From NCBI GenBank assembly GCA_025965155.1, contig JAOPXN010000024.1, positions 1 to 49,471 on the forward strand: a stretch of 49,471 nt of DNA, written 5' to 3'. The notes below the pieces were generated by a model that was not told the origin of the DNA, did no database searches, and saw only the letters and a program-made list of their open reading frames with translations. Positions 1-22,325 of the stretch are shown here, piece after piece. Origin of the DNA: Propionibacteriaceae bacterium. Lineage in GTDB: Bacteria > Actinomycetota > Actinomycetes > Propionibacteriales > Propionibacteriaceae. The translations under genes were made by a program, and so were the position numbers. The stretch's first letter is position 1; every line of letters begins with the position of its first letter.

Positions 1-533
1 CCGGCGATCTGGTCAACAGCTTTGCCCATACGTTCGCAGGCGCGGAGGCGGTCGTGCTGCCCTCGGGCTCGTGCGCTGCGATGCTGCGTAAGCACGCTCA
101 GCACGTCGCACCCGGCGTGGTGATGCCGCCGGTCTATGAGCTGTCGGAGTTCCTGATCGACGTGCTCGGAGTCACCGACGTGGGGGCCACCTTCGAACAT
201 TCGGTGACCTATCACCCGACCTGTCATTCGCTGCGCCTGCTCGGCGTCGGCGACCGGCCATACCGACTGCTGCGGGCGGTGGAGGGTCTGGAGCTGCGGG
301 CGCTGCCGGGCGCCGACGAGTGTTGTGGGTTCGGCGGGACGTTTGCGGTGAAGAACGCCGAGACGTCCTCGGCCATGGGACACGACAAGATCGCCGCCGT
401 GGCCGCCACCGGCGCGGAGATCCTGTGCGCCTCCGATGCCTCCTGCCTGATGCACCTGAGCGGCATCGCCACCAAGGAGGAGCAGCCGGTGCGCACCATG
501 CACCTGGCCGAGATCCTGGCGAGTACCCGATGA
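1..533 (+). CDS. lutA: LutA lactate-oxidation iron-sulfur subunit, 5'-truncated by window edge
   Basis: C-terminal part of the LutA (GlpC-like) subunit of the LutABC complex, which oxidises L-lactate to pyruvate. The reading frame is open from base 3, so the real start lies outside the window. The family signatures are visible: a PSGSC segment early on, YHPTCHS in the middle, and a CCG-type cluster ligand in ADECCGFGG. These cysteine-rich (CCG) motifs bind Fe-S clusters in this family. The TGA stop overlaps the ATG of lutB (ATGA), so the two are translationally coupled. The assignment is confident from the motifs and from the order A-B-C. Confidence 0.93.
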   Translation, partial: GDLVNSFAHTFAGAEAVVLPSGSCAAMLRKHAQHVAPGVVMPPVYELSEFLIDVLGVTDVGATFEHSVTYHPTCHSLRLLGVGDRPYRLLRAVEGLELRALPGADECCGFGGTFAVKNAETSSAMGHDKIAAVAATGAEILCASDASCLMHLSGIATKEEQPVRTMHLAEILASTR

Positions 534-6430: not shown

Positions 6431-6503
6431 GCCCCCATAGCTCAGGGGATAGAGCAAAGGTTTCCTAAACCTTGTGTCGCAGGTTCGAATCCTGCTGGGG
6501 GCG
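6431..6503 (+). tRNA. tRNA-Arg (anticodon CCT)
   Basis: A complete cloverleaf of 73 nt plus an encoded CCA at 6504-6506. The acceptor stem is GCCCCCA / TGGGGGC, the D stem GCTC / GAGC, the anticodon stem AAGGT / ACCTT with loop TTCCTAA (anticodon CCT at 6464-6466), and the T arm GCAGG-TTCGAAT-CCTGC. It reads AGG arginine codons, which are rare in high-GC actinobacteria. tRNA 3' ends of this kind are common integration sites, and a stretch of accessory character follows. Confidence 0.97.
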
Positions 6504-6506
6504 CCA

Positions 6507-16633: not shown

Positions 16634-17500
16634 TCACCGGCTGCCAGTCACCGGGCCGTTGCCGCCGGCCCCGGCCAGCAGACCGAGCAGCCGAGCCACC
16701 TCCTCCGCCACGGCATCCCGCGCCGGTCCGAGGTACTTCCGCGTGTCCACCAGCGCAGGGTCGGCCGCCAGCAGGCTACGGACCACATCGGTGAACACCT
16801 TGTTCAGGTGGGTGGCGATATTGATCTTCCGCATTCCGGCCCGAACCGCGCGAACGATCTCCTCGTCGGGCACCCCGGAGGAGCCGTGTAGGACAAGCGG
16901 CACCGGCACAGCGGCATGTAGGTCGGCGATCCGGTCCAGGTCAAGCAGAGCACTGCGCTCAGTCATCGCGTGCGAGGAACCGACGGCCACCGCGAGGGCG
17001 TCGACGCCGGTAGCCGTGGCAAATTCCGCCGCCTCGGTCGGCCGGGTCCGGGCCCCGGGGGCATGGACGCCGTCCTTGCCGCCGACCTCCCCGAGCTCCG
17101 CCTCTACTTCCACCCCGCGCGCGTGGCAGTACTGGACGACCCGGGCGGTCGCTGCCACGTTGTCGGCATAGCTGAGCGCCGAGGCGTCGAACATGACCGA
17201 CCCGAAGCCGAGCTCGACGGCTTCGGCGACCAGCTCCTCCTGGGTGCAGTGATCGAGATGGACCACCACCTCGACCCCGGTAGCGCGGCCGATCGCCAGC
17301 GTGGCCAGGCCGATAGGGGCCAGCGCGCCGTGATACCTCACTGCGTTCTGGGAGATCTGCAGGACCACCGGGGCACCGGCCTTCTCGGCCCCGGCGACCA
17401 GCGCCTCGGCGTGCTCAATGCTGAACACGTTGAACGCCCCGAGTGCGCCACCGGCGCGGTCCGCAGCGGCCAACAGGTCCGTCAGGCGGGCCAGAGTCAT
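16634..17500 (-). CDS. class II ketose-bisphosphate aldolase (tagatose/fructose-1,6-bisphosphate type)
   Basis: A 288-residue zinc-dependent aldolase. Family signatures: GAFNVFSIEHAEALV at the N-terminus, the Zn/catalytic VVHLDHCTQEE, GFGSVMFDAS, EAELGEVGGKDG and HGSSGVPDEEI followed by GMRKINIATHLNK. In this operon a GatY/KbaY role, cleaving tagatose-1,6-bisphosphate to glyceraldehyde-3-phosphate and DHAP, is more likely than glycolytic fructose-bisphosphate cleavage; the sequence alone cannot separate them. The ATG overlaps the nagA stop (ATGA). Last gene of the amino-sugar operon. Confidence 0.88.
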   Translation of the reverse strand: MTLARLTDLLAAADRAGGALGAFNVFSIEHAEALVAGAEKAGAPVVLQISQNAVRYHGALAPIGLATLAIGRATGVEVVVHLDHCTQEELVAEAVELGFGSVMFDASALSYADNVAATARVVQYCHARGVEVEAELGEVGGKDGVHAPGARTRPTEAAEFATATGVDALAVAVGSSHAMTERSALLDLDRIADLHAAVPVPLVLHGSSGVPDEEIVRAVRAGMRKINIATHLNKVFTDVVRSLLAADPALVDTRKYLGPARDAVAEEVARLLGLLAGAGGNGPVTGSR

Positions 17501-18675
17501 GTCGTGTCCACCCATCGTCCGCCCTGCATCACCCGCTGCAGGAACCCTTGTTCGTCCACCACGCAGAGGTCGGCGCGGGCACCGACCCGGATCTCCCCTA
17601 CCGCATCCTCGGCCGCATCCTCCCCGTAGGGGGCGGCCGCGAGCTCATGCCGTCGCGCGGGCGTGGTGGCGGCCATCGTCGCTGCGTCAACGATCGAGGC
17701 TCCGTTGCGCACCACGAGGGCGAACGCATCCGCCATCGTCAGGGTGGACCCGGCAATAGAGCCGATCCCCCCATTCTCGCCGACCAGCCGGGCCATGCCG
17801 TCATCCACCCGTACCTCAAGACTTCCCAGGCGGTAGCTACCGTCGCTCATGCCCGTGGCCACCATTGCGTCCGTTACCAGGGCTACCCGGTCCGGGCCCG
17901 CCGCGGCGATCGCCAGCGCGATGACGTCGCGGTGGAGGTGGAACCCGTCGCAGATCAGCTCCACCGTCACCCGCTCGTCGGACAGCAGCCGCGGGATCGG
18001 ACCGGGCTCACGGTGATGGATCGGCCGCATCGCGTTGAACAGGTGCGTCGCCACCGTTGCCCCGGCGTCCAGGGCGGCAGCCACGATCGACTCGTCACCG
18101 TCGGTGTGACCCACCGCGGCAGTGACGCCGGCGGCGGTCAGCCGTTCGATGGCATCCAGCGCACCTGGCAGCTCGGGAGCGATCGTGATCATCGAGATGG
18201 CCCCCTGCCCGGCCTCCAGCAGCCGGTCCAGGCTGGCCGGCTCCGGCGCTCGCAGCAGGCTGGGATCGTGCGCGCCGCACCTCGCGGCGGACAGGAAAGG
18301 TCCCTCCAGGTGAATACCGGCCAGATCGCCCGATGACACCAGCGGCACCAGGGTCTCCACCTGCGCCACGATCGTGTCGAGGTCGGCGGTGACCAGGCTG
18401 GCAAAGCTCGTGGTGGTGCCGTGTCGACGGTGGAAGTCACGGGCCCGCAGCGCCTCGTCACGGTCCGTGGTGGCATAGTCGGCGCCGCCGCCGCCGTGGA
18501 CATGGGTGTCGACAAAGCCGGGCACGACCCAACCTGTCACCGTCTCGGCCCCGGCGGGCGCCTCGCCCGGCGTGATCGCTGTAATGCGGCCGTCCCGGAG
18601 CTCGAGCACTACGTCGTCGAGCACGCCGTCGGCCGTCATCACCCGCTGGCAGGCCAGCCGTTGCGCCTTAGCCAT
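17497..18675 (-). CDS. nagA: N-acetylglucosamine/galactosamine-6-phosphate deacetylase
   Basis: A 392-residue amidohydrolase of the NagA/AgaA type, which removes acetate from N-acetylhexosamine-6-phosphate. The metal site HVH (His58, His60) lies in FVDTHVHGGGG; further signatures are GIHLEGPFL, VTAAVGHTDGD, ATHLFNAM and ALVTDAMVATG. The ATG follows GGAGGAG and overlaps the ROK gene by 8 nt. With the SIS and aldolase genes the substrate is most likely N-acetylgalactosamine-6-phosphate, by inference from context. Confidence 0.93.
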   Translation of the reverse strand: MAKAQRLACQRVMTADGVLDDVVLELRDGRITAITPGEAPAGAETVTGWVVPGFVDTHVHGGGGADYATTDRDEALRARDFHRRHGTTTSFASLVTADLDTIVAQVETLVPLVSSGDLAGIHLEGPFLSAARCGAHDPSLLRAPEPASLDRLLEAGQGAISMITIAPELPGALDAIERLTAAGVTAAVGHTDGDESIVAAALDAGATVATHLFNAMRPIHHREPGPIPRLLSDERVTVELICDGFHLHRDVIALAIAAAGPDRVALVTDAMVATGMSDGSYRLGSLEVRVDDGMARLVGENGGIGSIAGSTLTMADAFALVVRNGASIVDAATMAATTPARRHELAAAPYGEDAAEDAVGEIRVGARADLCVVDEQGFLQRVMQGGRWVDTT

Positions 18676-19627
18676 GCTCGTCTCCTCCCCCGGTCACTGC
18701 AAGGCGTGCGGACCGTACCCGATCCCAGCCTGCCAGCCCGGCACCAATAAGCCCGGCATCGGCACCCAGCACCGCGGTAACGATCCGGGGCATTCGCTGG
18801 AAGGCCAGCCGGTCCCGGATCGCCGCGGTGAGCTGCGGCAGGAACAGGTCCGCCGCACCCGAGAGGCCGCCACCGACAACGATCATCTCCGGACCCAGCA
18901 GGGTCACATAGAGCGTCAACGCCTCCACCAGCGCGTCGGTGGCGACCGCAAATGACTGCTGTGCCGCAGCGTCACCGGTGCGGGCGAGGTCGGCGACCTG
19001 CCGTCCGGTCAGCTCCCGGGCCGAGCCGGACAGGCGTCGGTACGTCCGGACCACCCCAGCGGCCGAGGCCACCGTCTCCAGGCAGCCGATCTGGCCGCAG
19101 GCACAAGGGATGTCGCCGGCGGCCGCTACCGGGATATGGCCAATCTCGCCGGCGTACCCGTCCGCATCGAGCATCCGGCCGTCCACCACCATGGCGCCCG
19201 CGATTCCGGTGCCCAGTGGCAGGAACAGCAGGTTGGACACCCCGGCGCCTCCGCCGAGCCGCCACTCGGCCAGCCCGCCGGACCGTACGTCGTGGCCGAC
19301 CGCACCCAGCTGCCCGGTGAGCTCGGTCAGCCGCTGGCGCAGCGGAACGTCGTACCAGCCCACGTTGGGCGCCGCCTTCACCCGCCCAGTAGTCATCTCG
19401 ATGATGCCGGGCACCACGACCCCGTACCCGACGCAGACGCCATCCGGCCGAGCGAGAGTGACGTCGGTGATCTGCTCGGCAAGCCAGCCGACCAGTCCGG
19501 CGCCGCCGTCGGCAAGATGGGTGCGCCTGCGTTCCACCCCGGTCAGCGTGCCGTCGGCATGGGCATAGCCGATTTTGGTCAACGTGCCGCCGAGGTCTAA
19601 GGCGACGACGAACTCCTGCGCTTTCAC
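18668..19627 (-). CDS. ROK-family sugar kinase, probable N-acetylhexosamine kinase
   Basis: A 319-residue ROK kinase. The phosphate loop is DLGGTLTKIG (residues 11-20), the catalytic Asp lies near residue 113 in GHDVRSGG, and the ROK zinc site is His164 with Cys175, Cys177 and Cys182 (PCACGQIGCLE). It should phosphorylate an imported free hexosamine at O6, standing in for PTS phosphorylation. The GTG start directly abuts the TGA of the SIS gene, and its stop overlaps nagA. Substrate inferred as N-acetylgalactosamine or N-acetylglucosamine from the operon. Confidence 0.88.
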   Translation of the reverse strand: MKAQEFVVALDLGGTLTKIGYAHADGTLTGVERRRTHLADGGAGLVGWLAEQITDVTLARPDGVCVGYGVVVPGIIEMTTGRVKAAPNVGWYDVPLRQRLTELTGQLGAVGHDVRSGGLAEWRLGGGAGVSNLLFLPLGTGIAGAMVVDGRMLDADGYAGEIGHIPVAAAGDIPCACGQIGCLETVASAAGVVRTYRRLSGSARELTGRQVADLARTGDAAAQQSFAVATDALVEALTLYVTLLGPEMIVVGGGLSGAADLFLPQLTAAIRDRLAFQRMPRIVTAVLGADAGLIGAGLAGWDRVRSARLAVTGGGDEHG

Positions 19628-20509
19628 TCAGCCGGTCAGGATGATCGAGCGGGTCAGATGCCGCGGCTGGTCGGGGTCGAGTCCCATCGCCGCGGCGCGG
19701 GCCACCGCGATCCGCTGCACCAGGACAAGGTCCGCCATCGGATCCACGTTCCGTTCGACGAACCGGGCCCCCGTCGCCGTGACCTGGCCGGCCAGGCCGA
19801 CCGGCGCCGGCCCGAACATCCAGACGGCGCGGCCCTCGGTGGCGATGGCGATCGGTCCGTGGCGGTAGTCCATCGCCGGGTACGACTCGGCCCAGCTGGC
19901 GGAGGTCTCACGGAACTTCAGCGCTGCTTCGTGGGCGATCCCGATCGTCCAGCCGCGTCCCAGGAAGGTCATCTGCTCCACGCCGACCAGATCGGAGTCC
20001 AGCGGGACCGCCAGGGACTCCTGCGCCTGCTCGATCAGGGGGGCGATCGGCTCGCCGAAGAAGGAGCGGAACAACGCCAGCGTGCTGGTGGCGAACCGGG
20101 TCTGGACCACCGACTGCTCGTCGGCAAAGGAGAGGTCGACCACCTTGTCGGCCAGGTCCACCACAGGCGAGGTCATGTCGCCGGTGACCACGACGGTGGG
20201 GACTCGGCCTTGGGCCCGCTGGAGGACGTCGATGACCTCGGTCGTGGTGCCGGACCGGGTCAGTGCCACGATCCGGTCGTACGGGCGCTCCGGCACCTCC
20301 GAGGCGGTGAAGGCGTAGGACAGGCCGTGGCCCTTGGTCTCCCGCCATTCGGCCAGGACCTGGGCGACGAACCAGGAGGTCCCGCACCCGACGAAGGCCA
20401 CCCGTTCGCCGCTCGCCGGCAGCAGCCCGGCAATCTCAGGCATCAGCGCGTCAGCACGGGCCCAGCACTCAGGTTGCGAGACGATCTCTTCATCGACATG
20501 GAAGCTCAC
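19628..20509 (-). CDS. SIS-domain sugar isomerase/deaminase (AgaS-like)
   Basis: A 293-residue protein with two SIS domains, the fold of GlmS isomerase and AgaS. The first SIS loop is AFVGCGTSWFVAQ with ALTRSGTTTEVID, and the second region has FLGRGWTIGIAHEAALKFRE and the GlmS-like DYRHGP. AgaS converts galactosamine-6-phosphate to tagatose-6-phosphate plus ammonia. GTG 20509 was chosen because it follows GAGGGAGAAG; the frame continues upstream across the regulatory region but cannot be coding there. First gene of the operon. Confidence 0.87.
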   Translation of the reverse strand: MSFHVDEEIVSQPECWARADALMPEIAGLLPASGERVAFVGCGTSWFVAQVLAEWRETKGHGLSYAFTASEVPERPYDRIVALTRSGTTTEVIDVLQRAQGRVPTVVVTGDMTSPVVDLADKVVDLSFADEQSVVQTRFATSTLALFRSFFGEPIAPLIEQAQESLAVPLDSDLVGVEQMTFLGRGWTIGIAHEAALKFRETSASWAESYPAMDYRHGPIAIATEGRAVWMFGPAPVGLAGQVTATGARFVERNVDPMADLVLVQRIAVARAAAMGLDPDQPRHLTRSIILTG

Positions 20510-20537
20510 CGGCACTTCTCCCTCGGGGTGGCGATTT

Positions 20538-20593
20538 TGTTTGTTTCCTTCCCAAACGAACAGATATGAACATATCATGGCTGCTGTTCGAAC
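20538..20593. promoter_or_regulatory. operator/promoter region between SIS operon and DeoR gene
   Basis: An AT-rich divergent control region with stacked inverted repeats. TGTTTGTTT (20538-20546) pairs with AAACGAACA (20554-20562) with one wobble. GATATG-AA-CATATC is perfect at 20563-20576. GTTCGAAC is a palindrome at 20586-20593. CGAACA (20557-20562) and TGTTCG (20585-20590) form an inverted pair around the second palindrome. The likely ligand is the divergent DeoR regulator. Confidence 0.6.
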
Positions 20594-20606
20594 GACAGGA
20601 GTTCCG

Positions 20607-21377
20607 ATGACTCGTGCTGAACGTCTGGCTGCTTTGCTTGAGCGGCTGGTGAGTGACGGGAAGATCGACGTCGAGCACTCGGCGGACCACTTCGACGTGT
20701 CGGCCGCGACCATCCGGCGCGACCTGGACTACCTGGCCGAGCAGCAGTTGCTGGCCCGGACCCACGGCGGTGCGGTGCCGAACTCCACCAGCTATGACCT
20801 GCCGCTGCGCTACAAGTCCACCTCCCGGGGCGAGGCGAAGACCCGGATCGCGCAGCGGGCGGTCGAGATGCTCTGGCCGGGATGCACCGTCTCGCTCAAC
20901 GGTGGCACCACCACGGTGGAGGTGGCGCGGGCCATCCCGTCGGCCGAGCCGCTGCACCACGGCATCACCGTGGTCACCAATGCGCTCAACATCGCCACCG
21001 AGCTGACCGTACGGCCGTTCATCAAGATCGTGGTCTGTGGCGGTGTCGCACGGCCGCAGAGCTACGAGCTGGTCGGTGCGCTGGCCACCGAGACGCTCAG
21101 CCAGCTGACCCCGGACATCTGCTTTCTGGGCGCCATCGGGCTGGACCCCGAGGCGGGCATCACCACCAACGACGAGGCCGAGTCCGCCATCAACCGGGTG
21201 ATGGTCAAGCAGGCCAAACGCACCGTCGTGGTGATCGACTCCTCCAAGCTCGGCACCGTAGGATTTTCTCGAATCTGCCACGTCAGCGAGGTGGCAGCCA
21301 TCCTGACCGACAGTGGCGCCGACTCACAGATGGTGGCCACCCTGCGCAGCCACGGAGTCGAGGTGATTCTCGCGTGA
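20607..21377 (+). CDS. DeoR-family repressor of the amino-sugar operon
   Basis: A 256-residue DeoR regulator. The N-terminal HTH reads DHFDVSAATIRRDLDYLAEQ with the family RTHGGAV hinge. The C-terminal sensor is the DeoRC domain, which binds phosphosugars (NGGTTTVEVARAIP, VVTNALNIA, CGGVARPQSYELVG, FLGAIGLD). The start was set at ATG 20607, preceded by ACAGGAG; an in-frame ATG at 20577 lies inside the palindromic operator. Divergent from the SIS-ROK-NagA-aldolase operon, so an AgaR-like role, released by tagatose or galactosamine phosphates, is likely. Confidence 0.9.
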   Translation: MTRAERLAALLERLVSDGKIDVEHSADHFDVSAATIRRDLDYLAEQQLLARTHGGAVPNSTSYDLPLRYKSTSRGEAKTRIAQRAVEMLWPGCTVSLNGGTTTVEVARAIPSAEPLHHGITVVTNALNIATELTVRPFIKIVVCGGVARPQSYELVGALATETLSQLTPDICFLGAIGLDPEAGITTNDEAESAINRVMVKQAKRTVVVIDSSKLGTVGFSRICHVSEVAAILTDSGADSQMVATLRSHGVEVILA

Positions 21378-21398: not shown

Positions 21399-21427
21399 TT
21401 GACCCGACCTGGATCGCGACGTACCTT
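21399..21427 (+). promoter_or_regulatory. near-consensus promoter of the 12-codon ORF unit
   Basis: TTGACC at 21399-21404, a 17-nt spacer and TACCTT at 21422-21427, close to the housekeeping sigma consensus. The predicted start is near A21434, giving a leader of about 25 nt before the ATG at 21459. It begins 22 nt after the DeoR stop. Confidence 0.65.
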
Positions 21428-21438
21428 AGGTGCACACG

Positions 21439-21453
21439 GAAAGGAGGTGGTCC
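21439..21453 (+). promoter_or_regulatory. extended Shine-Dalgarno complementary to the 16S rRNA 3' tail
   Basis: GAAAGGAGGTGGTCC can pair continuously with the usual bacterial 16S 3' end GGATCACCTCCTTTC: 14 Watson-Crick pairs and one G-U, 15 in a row. Normal sites here have 4 to 7. Its 3' edge is 5 nt before the ATG at 21459. Confidence 0.7.
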
Positions 21454-21458
21454 GAAGA

Positions 21459-21497
21459 ATGAGTGACTTTTGGACATGTGAGGTGACGGCCAGCTAG
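21459..21497 (+). CDS. 12-codon small ORF behind the extended ribosome site
   Basis: Encodes MSDFWTCEVTAS and stops at TAG 21495-21497. Evidence for translation is the promoter at 21399, the 15-nt complement to the 16S tail, and the short spacing to ATG. A hairpin (21481-21507) covers the last codons and stop. No family is known to me. It may be a leader peptide, a bioactive micropeptide, or only a device to place a ribosome on this RNA. Too short for gene finders. Confidence 0.5.
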   Translation: MSDFWTCEVTAS

Positions 21498-21507
21498 CCG
21501 CCCACCT
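21481..21507 (+). promoter_or_regulatory. hairpin across the small ORF stop codon
   Basis: AGGTG (21481-21485) pairs with CACCT (21503-21507) and CGGC (21487-21490) with GCCG (21497-21500), with a small internal loop and apex CAGCTA containing the stop codon start. The 3' arm CCACCT (21502-21507) can instead pair with AGGTGG (21445-21450) in the ribosome site, so two exclusive folds are possible. Confidence 0.5.
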
Positions 21508-21555
21508 GTTGATCAACTGGTCGCGTGCGGCCGGCTAATCCACAGCCAACACCCG

Positions 21556-21634
21556 AACCCGCGAGCGCCGGACATTGTCCCCCGGCCGACGCACTTCCCG
21601 GATCCCCGGAAAGGTGTCGACAAGCTCGCGGGTT
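21556..21634 (+). ncRNA. structured RNA segment closed by an 11-bp helix
   Basis: AACCCGCGAGC (21556-21566) is a perfect complement of GCTCGCGGGTT (21624-21634). Inside lie GCCGG / CCGGC (21567-21571 with 21582-21586) and an imperfect TTCC..GG / CC..GGAA hairpin (21595-21611), a three-way-junction layout. The closing helix runs into TTTGTCC, so it may also end the small-ORF transcript. No known riboswitch class is recognised. Confidence 0.4.
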
Positions 21635-21668
21635 TGTCCATGTCTGGGCTTGTTCGTCCAGCTACCTC

Positions 21669-21674
21669 TAGCCT
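21669..21674 (+). promoter_or_regulatory. leaderless -10 of acVLRF1
   Basis: TAGCCT (TANNNT) exactly 6 nt before ATG 21681, the spacing typical of leaderless actinobacterial mRNAs. No ribosome site precedes the ATG. Confidence 0.5.
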
Positions 21675-21680
21675 GATGCC

Positions 21681-22325
21681 ATGTCGGCTACGCCTGGCCC
21701 GCGCATCGTCTCGGTCCGCCGCGAACGACTGCAGCGCTGGCTAGCCACCTTCGTCGAACGGCACGGCGCGGCCACCGTGCGCGCGAGCGGCAGCCGGGTG
21801 GACCTGGTCGCGGCCGACGGCGCTCGGGCCGAGATCGCCGTACCGTTCCCGCCGCTGGCTCAGCCCGACGGCGGCCTGGATGCACTGGTCAGCCATGTCG
21901 ACCAGACCCGCCGGGTCGGCGTCATCCTGGCCCGGAAGGGCGGCTTCGCCGTCGGGATCTTCGTCGGCAACACCCTGGTGACGTCCAAGGTCGGATCCGG
22001 CTACGTCCAAGGCAAGACGAAAGCCGGTGGCTGGTCGCAGCAGCGCTACGCCCGACGCCGGGACAACCAGTCCAAGAAGGCGTACGGGGAGGCCGCCGAC
22101 GAGGTGGCCCGGATCCTGTTGCCGGAGCAGTCCTCGCTGGATGCGGTCGTCACCGGCGGCGACAAAGGAGCCATTGCGGCGGTCCTGGCCGACCCTCGGC
22201 TGGAGCGGCTGGCCGGTCTGGTGCAGCCGGGCGTCCTTCCGGTGGTCGACCCGCGGCTGCGCGTGCTGGAGGCTTTCCCCGAGGCGTTCCTCTCGGTACG
22301 GATCGGGCTGAACGAGCTCGCCTGA
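21681..22325 (+). CDS. acVLRF1-family peptidyl-tRNA hydrolase (ribosome rescue)
   Basis: A 214-residue actinobacterial VLRF1 protein, related to the eukaryotic Vms1/ANKZF1 release factors that cleave peptidyl-tRNA on stalled large subunits. The conserved core is GYVQGKTKAGGWSQQRYARRRDNQ near residues 108-130, where the Ser-Gln stretch corresponds to the catalytic loop. VVTGGDKGAIAAVLADPRL and DPRLRVLEAF follow, as in the family. The ATG is probably leaderless. Converges with pdxH with a 3-nt gap. Placement just after the extended Shine-Dalgarno unit is notable. Confidence 0.85.
   Translation: MSATPGPRIVSVRRERLQRWLATFVERHGAATVRASGSRVDLVAADGARAEIAVPFPPLAQPDGGLDALVSHVDQTRRVGVILARKGGFAVGIFVGNTLVTSKVGSGYVQGKTKAGGWSQQRYARRRDNQSKKAYGEAADEVARILLPEQSSLDAVVTGGDKGAIAAVLADPRLERLAGLVQPGVLPVVDPRLRVLEAFPEAFLSVRIGLNELA

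Follow-up and report, generated by a model that had tools for sequence, protein, structure and literature searches.

The locus lies on the forward strand of a 49,471-nucleotide stretch of DNA (the window) from a Propionibacteriaceae bacterium, where a profile scan identified a DeoR regulator gene upstream and the release-factor-like gene acVLRF1 downstream (21681–22325, + strand, Pfam PF18859, E = 2.1e-45), the latter being a neighbour and not part of the unit described here. The genes at 16634–21377, which we take to encode an aldolase, a deacetylase, a ROK kinase, a SIS-domain protein and the DeoR regulator, perhaps form an amino-sugar cluster. acVLRF1 may be leaderless and a promoter of its own is possible, with TAGCCT standing 6 nt before its ATG (21669–21681). 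In the region between them, a consensus-type promoter can be read at 21399–21427 (+ strand; TTGACC at 21399–21404, a 17-nt spacer and TACCTT at 21422–21427), which was absent from the output of a strict consensus promoter scan of the window. The predicted transcript start is the A at 21434, giving a leader of 25 nt that contains the 16S-complementary tract GGAAAGGAGGTGGTCC at 21438–21453 (+ strand). It is followed at 21459–21497 (+ strand) by an ORF consisting of an ATG start (21459–21461), 12 codons in all (MSDFWTCEVTAS), and a TAG stop (21495–21497). Promoter, leader, 16S tract, ORF and stop codon had all been proposed by the original prediction, and reading the sequence confirmed every coordinate.

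The unit had initially been delimited as 21399–21497. Its features do lie in that interval, but the RNA is ~208 nt and not 99 nt long, and it is already catalogued: 21434–21641 (+ strand, the start being predicted) matches the Rfam family RF02471 (Ms_IGR-5, "Actinobacteria sRNA") over model positions 1–184, with 84.4 bits against a gathering cut-off of 45 (E = 2.5e-17). No second match to RF02471 is present in this genome. In a search of relatives, the family scored above its cut-off in 44 of 57 genomes, this one included (45 at E ≤ 0.001); non-conservation in close relatives had been named as refuting the prediction, and the RNA was found in all 19 other genomes of the same genus that were searched. 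Across the phylum, 35 of 396 sampled genomes passed the cut-off (70 at E ≤ 0.001), and none of 14 named control genomes gave a match. One genome (G006) carries a second, weak match of 30.8 bits. The description of RF02471 as displayed mentions no ORF, and its structure line lacks two of the pairings described below (P1 and the kissing pairing K), the first helix pairing the Shine-Dalgarno (SD) region with codons 10–11 instead.

IGR-5 is said to originate from an M. smegmatis paper, and the family was reportedly found with heterologous Hfq. RNA-seq support for homologues comes from three papers, in which the S. lividans homologue is marked as RNA-seq validated (PMC8079986), the S. avermitilis homologue is an sRNA unit (PMC8780764) and M. 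smegmatis IGR-5 overlaps ncMSMEG15794c (PMC10454040). PMC4974804 describes ribosome reads on the M. abscessus and M. smegmatis homologues, and its authors warn that Ribo-seq reads also fall on untranslated RNAs. IGR-5 is not mentioned in the accessible portions of PMC4109619, PMC6789036, PMC8388888 and PMC4046766. Among open-licence papers we found none on the function of the family, and none describing the ORF, covarying P1 and kissing pairs, or a presence in other phyla. The locus is a member of a known Rfam family in which the ORF, the covariation of P1 and K and the occurrence in other phyla are what looks new.

Comparisons were made over 179 listed loci, this one included, comprising 59 found with the Rfam model (the best 30 of 46 matches in the relatives search and the 29 further best of 71 phylum-wide matches) and 120 found by pattern among the matches listed. 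The pattern, which fixes GGAGGTGGTCC, GTGAGGTGRC and an 18–27 nt gap, yielded at least 120 loci (L061–L180). An alignment (A1) was started from the 178 loci with a scored hairpin (L131 is absent). A hand-made list of 22 names, including L131 and L093, was excluded for wrong or missing hairpins, cut ends and a few other reasons; loci longer than 260 nt and near-duplicates were then dropped to leave 87, and L093 was re-added with a hand-set end, giving 88 rows, of which 51 were pattern-fetched and 37 were not.

The promoter recurs throughout this collection, with TANNNT at the expected position in 177 of 178 listed loci (8 in one shuffle) and TTG-15..20-TANNNT in 160 of 178 (0 in one shuffle). 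At its other end, the RNA closes with a terminal hairpin at 21554–21636 (+ strand; arms 21554–21566 and 21624–21636), which is probably a terminator judging from its pairing: in A1, 99.3% of the cells of the main stem are paired and 9 of 10 pairs show double changes, and the equivalents in two other phyla mostly continue into T-rich stretches. According to automatic gene calls at 191 loci, the next gene lies on the same strand in 75 and on the opposite strand in 88 (28 unscored), and the downstream gene cluster changes between lineages. Since both the strand and the cluster of the downstream gene differ between lineages, the unit stands alone, and cis-regulation of a neighbour was dismissed on the basis of synteny. 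The stand-alone unit with its own promoter that had been predicted is, on the comparison of loci, a stand-alone RNA that also has a terminal hairpin and a conserved ribosome site and start-to-stop frame. acVLRF1 was seen near the RNA in nine loci (eight of the same genus, and L028 of the same family), and the cluster was unseen in the other scored loci. A mobile origin was also considered and rejected, the exact pattern having no match in viral contigs and blastn none in phages; the sole plasmid-collection record with a partial match is the 2.66-Mb record NZ_LN868939.1 of Nocardia farcinica (133589–133654, 75% of an 87-nt query, 77% identity, E = 1e-3).

The tract at 21438–21453 (+ strand) can be described as an extended SD. 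The original prediction had matched it to an expected 16S rRNA tail and proposed a check of the genome's own 16S 3′ end; that gene was not found in the assembly, but the 3′ tail is GGATCACCTCCTTTCT in all seven copies from four relatives (three from the same genus and one from the same order; no match was obtained in a fifth genome). The site and this tail form an uninterrupted duplex of 16 pairs, two of them G-U, with a predicted energy of −29.8 kcal/mol, and the 15 pairs with a single G-U reported earlier are right for the inner 15. It is the strongest anti-16S duplex among 24,724 overlapping 24-mers sampled from the window at 4-nt steps on both strands; the runner-up at a separate site reaches −20.7 kcal/mol. 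AAGGAGGTGRTCC is present once in the 4.49-Mb genome. Of the 1320 cells in the 15 A1 columns opposite the 16S tail, 142 depart from the perfect complement and 140 of these still pair, as do 58 of the 60 departures in the 37 rows that were not pattern-fetched. As far as aligned sequences can tell, the 16S complement is maintained as pairing. The spacer from the complement to the start codon measures 4 nt in 47, 5 nt in 82, 6 nt in 45 and other lengths in 3 of the listed loci.

The ORF has 12 codons in 173 of the 179 listed loci, 13 codons in five and 14 codons in one. The script for start parsing, which accepted ATG, GTG and TTG only, identified a canonical start in 178 of them (TTG 90, ATG 69, GTG 19); the start of the remaining locus, L114, is GTG by eye, and its 13 codons then become 12. 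The stop codon is TAG in 156, TGA in 16 and TAA in 7. Independently of the script, the first start-codon column of A1 contains A in 40, T in 31, G in 17 and C in 0 rows. The 59 Rfam-found loci alone all have a canonical start (ATG 41, TTG 13, GTG 5), with 12 codons in 56 and 13 codons in 3. ORF length changes by whole codons, while the SD-to-start spacer shifts by single bases, and no early stop interrupts frame 0 wherever a start was parsed; the two remaining frames are interrupted in 122 and 176 loci. Judged by start, stop, length and frame together, the short reading frame appears to be conserved as an ORF. Within it, the Glu-Val codons GAG GTG, which also constitute an SD-like GAGGTG inside the ORF, 9 nt ahead of its stop (21480–21485, + strand), are invariant in all 88 A1 rows, 51 of which came via a pattern containing that motif; no synonymous variation occurs, the 37 rows not fetched by pattern included. 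Residues 2–4 of the peptide vary widely, and Ser at codon 3 is encoded by both AGC and TCN.

The predicted ORF is conserved from start to stop, but the same strand is also base-paired to the 3′ half of the RNA, which had been missed. The helix P1 joins 21482–21491, from the end of codon 8 to codon 11, to 21544–21553 (P1′), and 7 of its 10 pairs form in this genome, as GGUG/CACC and GGC/GCC with an internal loop. The kissing strand K, TGGACA of codons 5–6 (21471–21476), covaries with the loop segment UGUCCC at 21576–21581, and 5 of 6 pairs form here. The helix P2 links 21492–21501, which contains the stop codon, to 21527–21536, and a conserved NAAUNCC-like segment (21536–21541; A1 columns 208–214) lies ahead of P1′, all of these elements being on the + strand.

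Over the 88 rows of A1, the whole named structure has standard pairs in 88.3% of cells, compared with 35–43% when slid, and double changes in 28 of 37 pairs. P1 is paired in 94.2% of cells (slid controls 29–48%) with 52 double-change cells against 12.5 in shuffles, and K in 85.5% (slid controls 23–43%) with 58 against 28.2, these shuffles keeping row relatedness, which inflates the test. On the weakest measure, the number of pairs with a double change, the value of K was reached by 10 of 500 shuffles and that of P1 by 19 of 500; the outer two kissing pairs are unformed in 43 and 29 of 86 rows. In A1, P2 is paired in 86.6% of cells in its first four pairs and in 63.9% further in, and unguided RNAalifold returns P1, the first four P2 pairs and the terminal stem. 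Single loci illustrate the kissing pairs: GGAUG stands opposite CAUCC in all six loci read with that change, and UCGACC is opposite GGUCGA in L057, but in L089 and L133 codon 6 is changed and the loop GUCC kept, giving wobble pairs. On the strength of these pairings, the ORF strand appears to be half of the RNA's own fold, contributing to P1, part of P2 and the kissing pairs. The minimum-energy fold of this genome's RNA (z −2.67), from a program that cannot draw pseudoknots, pairs codons 5–6 with the ribosome site and not with the 3′ loop. This SD-side GUCC/GGAC pairing is possible in 96.6% of cells but does not covary, and could be an alternative state; the first helix of Rfam, between the SD and codons 10–11, showed no covariation either.

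Because the shuffles leave row relatedness in place, independent phyla weigh more. The pattern search reached L093, on a contig titled Zixibacteria, and L105, on one titled Nitrospirae, the phylum names being those of the record titles only. A covariance model (R1) built from A1 includes both loci, whose own genomes match by construction; it matched 45 of 132 genomes of L093's phylum (44 of 131 without the source genome) and 13 of 345 of L105's phylum (12 of 344 without it), with a single match per positive genome in both. RF02471 is named for Actinobacteria, yet its cut-off was passed by 14 of the 20 loci, out of 33, from these two phyla that were given to it. In L093's phylum, 19 of the 20 loci read parse into ORFs of 10 to 12 codons, L203 having no ATG, GTG or TTG start, and all 20 have a GTTGGG/AAATCCCAACAG element with four or more consecutive T further on. 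In the phylum of G451, P1 hardly varies in either strand, and the loci read do not show the kissing pairing. In L105's phylum, all 13 loci parse into ORFs of 13–16 codons and ten (L213–L222) have a P1 of 6–7 bp. Seven of the 13 loci from the phylum of G452 (L214, L216–L221) have kissing pairs of 7–9 bp, CUACGGC(G)/(C)GUCGUAG-like, with the partners changed on both sides in L221. For L210–L212, among others, the script detected neither K nor P1 as expected; in L210–L212 it picked other or wrong segments, and short GACC/GGUC matches were read by eye only.

A second phylum-wide sample of the home phylum gave R1 matches in 82 of 246 genomes, one of which (G279) has a second, weak match of 33.8 bits, and 20 of the 83 matches were fetched as distant actinobacterial copies. 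A canonical start in the usual frame is present in 9 of these and not in 11. The start is CTG in four and ATT or ATC in three (one by script, two by eye), and such starts (L227, L230, L235, L236, L237, L239 and L243) would be unusual for so strong a ribosome site. All three loci seen of one actinobacterial lineage (L234, L241 and L242) read the same GGAGGTGGC in a different frame, with ORFs of 10 codons that start with ATT, TTG and TTG, respectively, and L232 has no plausible ORF start. ORF length across all lineages examined is 10 to 16 codons. From these sequences, the combination of ORF, 16S duplex and coding-strand pairing seems to reach into two further bacterial phyla.

The reading that we consider best, with a probability of about one half, is that of a structured RNA gated by the ribosome, whose translation and folding would exclude each other. 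An independent, terminated RNA of ~200 nt, built for ribosome entry, would capture a 30S subunit through pairing along the entire free 16S tail, and the subunit would then start on the short ORF. The ORF strand would double as the 5′ strand of the fold, with codons 5–6 kissing the 3′ hairpin loop, the segment from the end of codon 8 to codon 11 pairing with the hairpin-adjacent segment as P1, and the stop codon inside P2. A ribosome crossing the 12 codons would have to open K, P1 and P2, and without a ribosome the coding strand could fold onto the 3′ half, so that ribosome occupancy would decide between an open, translated state and a closed, ribosome-free one. Since the ORF strand is the 5′ strand of the fold, a ribosome on the ORF would exclude the folded RNA, a mutual exclusion that we infer from the geometry of the pairs. 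The ORF would, as strong comparative indications suggest, be translated in this organism, and the two states would be what selection keeps. The output would be the RNA itself, through how stable it is or whether its 3′ half is exposed; as neither the neighbour nor the peptide is conserved, the RNA's own state is the simplest reading of the output.

Several known systems share parts of this arrangement. RNAIII and SgrS are small RNAs with a short ORF, in which ORF and regulatory part are separate; Ms_IGR-5 likewise combines a small RNA with a short ORF, but its ORF strand appears to be half of the fold and its peptide is unconserved. In trp-type attenuators, the position of the ribosome decides which helices form, as it would in Ms_IGR-5, which, however, has no conserved downstream gene. 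Like tmRNA, Ms_IGR-5 stands alone and combines a short ORF with pairing of the pseudoknot type, but it has its own SD and start codon; ARAGORN found no tmRNA in the window, its sole call being a tRNA-Arg at 6431–6506. 6S RNA and Ms1 are polymerase-binding RNAs, which Ms_IGR-5 would resemble as a stand-alone RNA at a central machine, except that its features point to the ribosome and not to RNA polymerase.

The exceptional strength of the predicted duplex would also suit a ribosome trap, the role that the original prediction had envisaged for the long pairing, in which the 16 pairs and a weak start hold the 30S subunit and the internal GAGGUG holds the ribosome after termination, thereby parking or titrating ribosomes. 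TTG is the commonest start in the 179 listed loci (90), but ATG is the commonest in the 59 Rfam-found ones (41), and the CTG, ATT or ATC starts of distant lineages are in keeping with a trap as well. So is the invariance of GAGGUG in A1, with its first two bases outside P1 and K, but 51 of the 88 aligned rows were fetched by a pattern containing GTGAGGTG and most of the motif is also constrained by P1; we regard a trap as rather unlikely. Much the same holds for a dual-function trans-acting sRNA whose ORF would control access to an mRNA-pairing seed in the 3′ half (P1′ or the GUCC loop). The unit is stand-alone, the family is catalogued as an sRNA and conserved segments lie in the 3′ half, but internal pairs already explain most of those segments, the NAAUNCC segment excepted, and this explanation too appears doubtful.

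That the RNA is a small mRNA for a functional 12-residue peptide is improbable. The invariant Glu-Val (88 of 88 rows) and the codon-3 Ser written as AGC and TCN would agree with such a peptide, but GAG GTG is never varied synonymously and the constraint on it therefore looks like one on the RNA; in addition, residues 2–4 vary widely, the ORF ranges from 10 to 16 codons, and one lineage uses the other frame in all three loci seen. A conserved peptide as the main function was rejected on account of the missing synonymous changes in the invariant codons and this change of frame. Peptide identity seems unimportant, given the differences in length and start codon and, within one lineage, in frame, and the peptide is probably a by-product. 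A leader-peptide attenuator or riboregulator of the next gene would find its neighbour in acVLRF1, which follows on the same strand in this genus, but the gene that comes next is not the same from lineage to lineage and lies on the opposite strand in 88 of 163 scored loci, which all but refutes this explanation.

The ribosome-gated RNA can be taken a step further, to a possible but distinctly more tentative proposal: an ancient class of RNAs in at least three phyla, in which the minimal ORF would be structural, the ribosome would be the ligand sensed via the entire 16S 3′ tail, and the peptide would be irrelevant, the RNA serving as a sensor of free ribosomes or a regulator in trans. Although catalogued as an actinobacterial sRNA, the family appears to span phyla, with a conserved core made up of the ORF, the 16-pair duplex with the 16S tail and the long-range pairs of the coding strand. 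Should its state be set by ribosome occupancy, Ms_IGR-5 would be a stand-alone RNA with the ribosome as its signal, and such RNAs caution that the labels coding and non-coding can fail.
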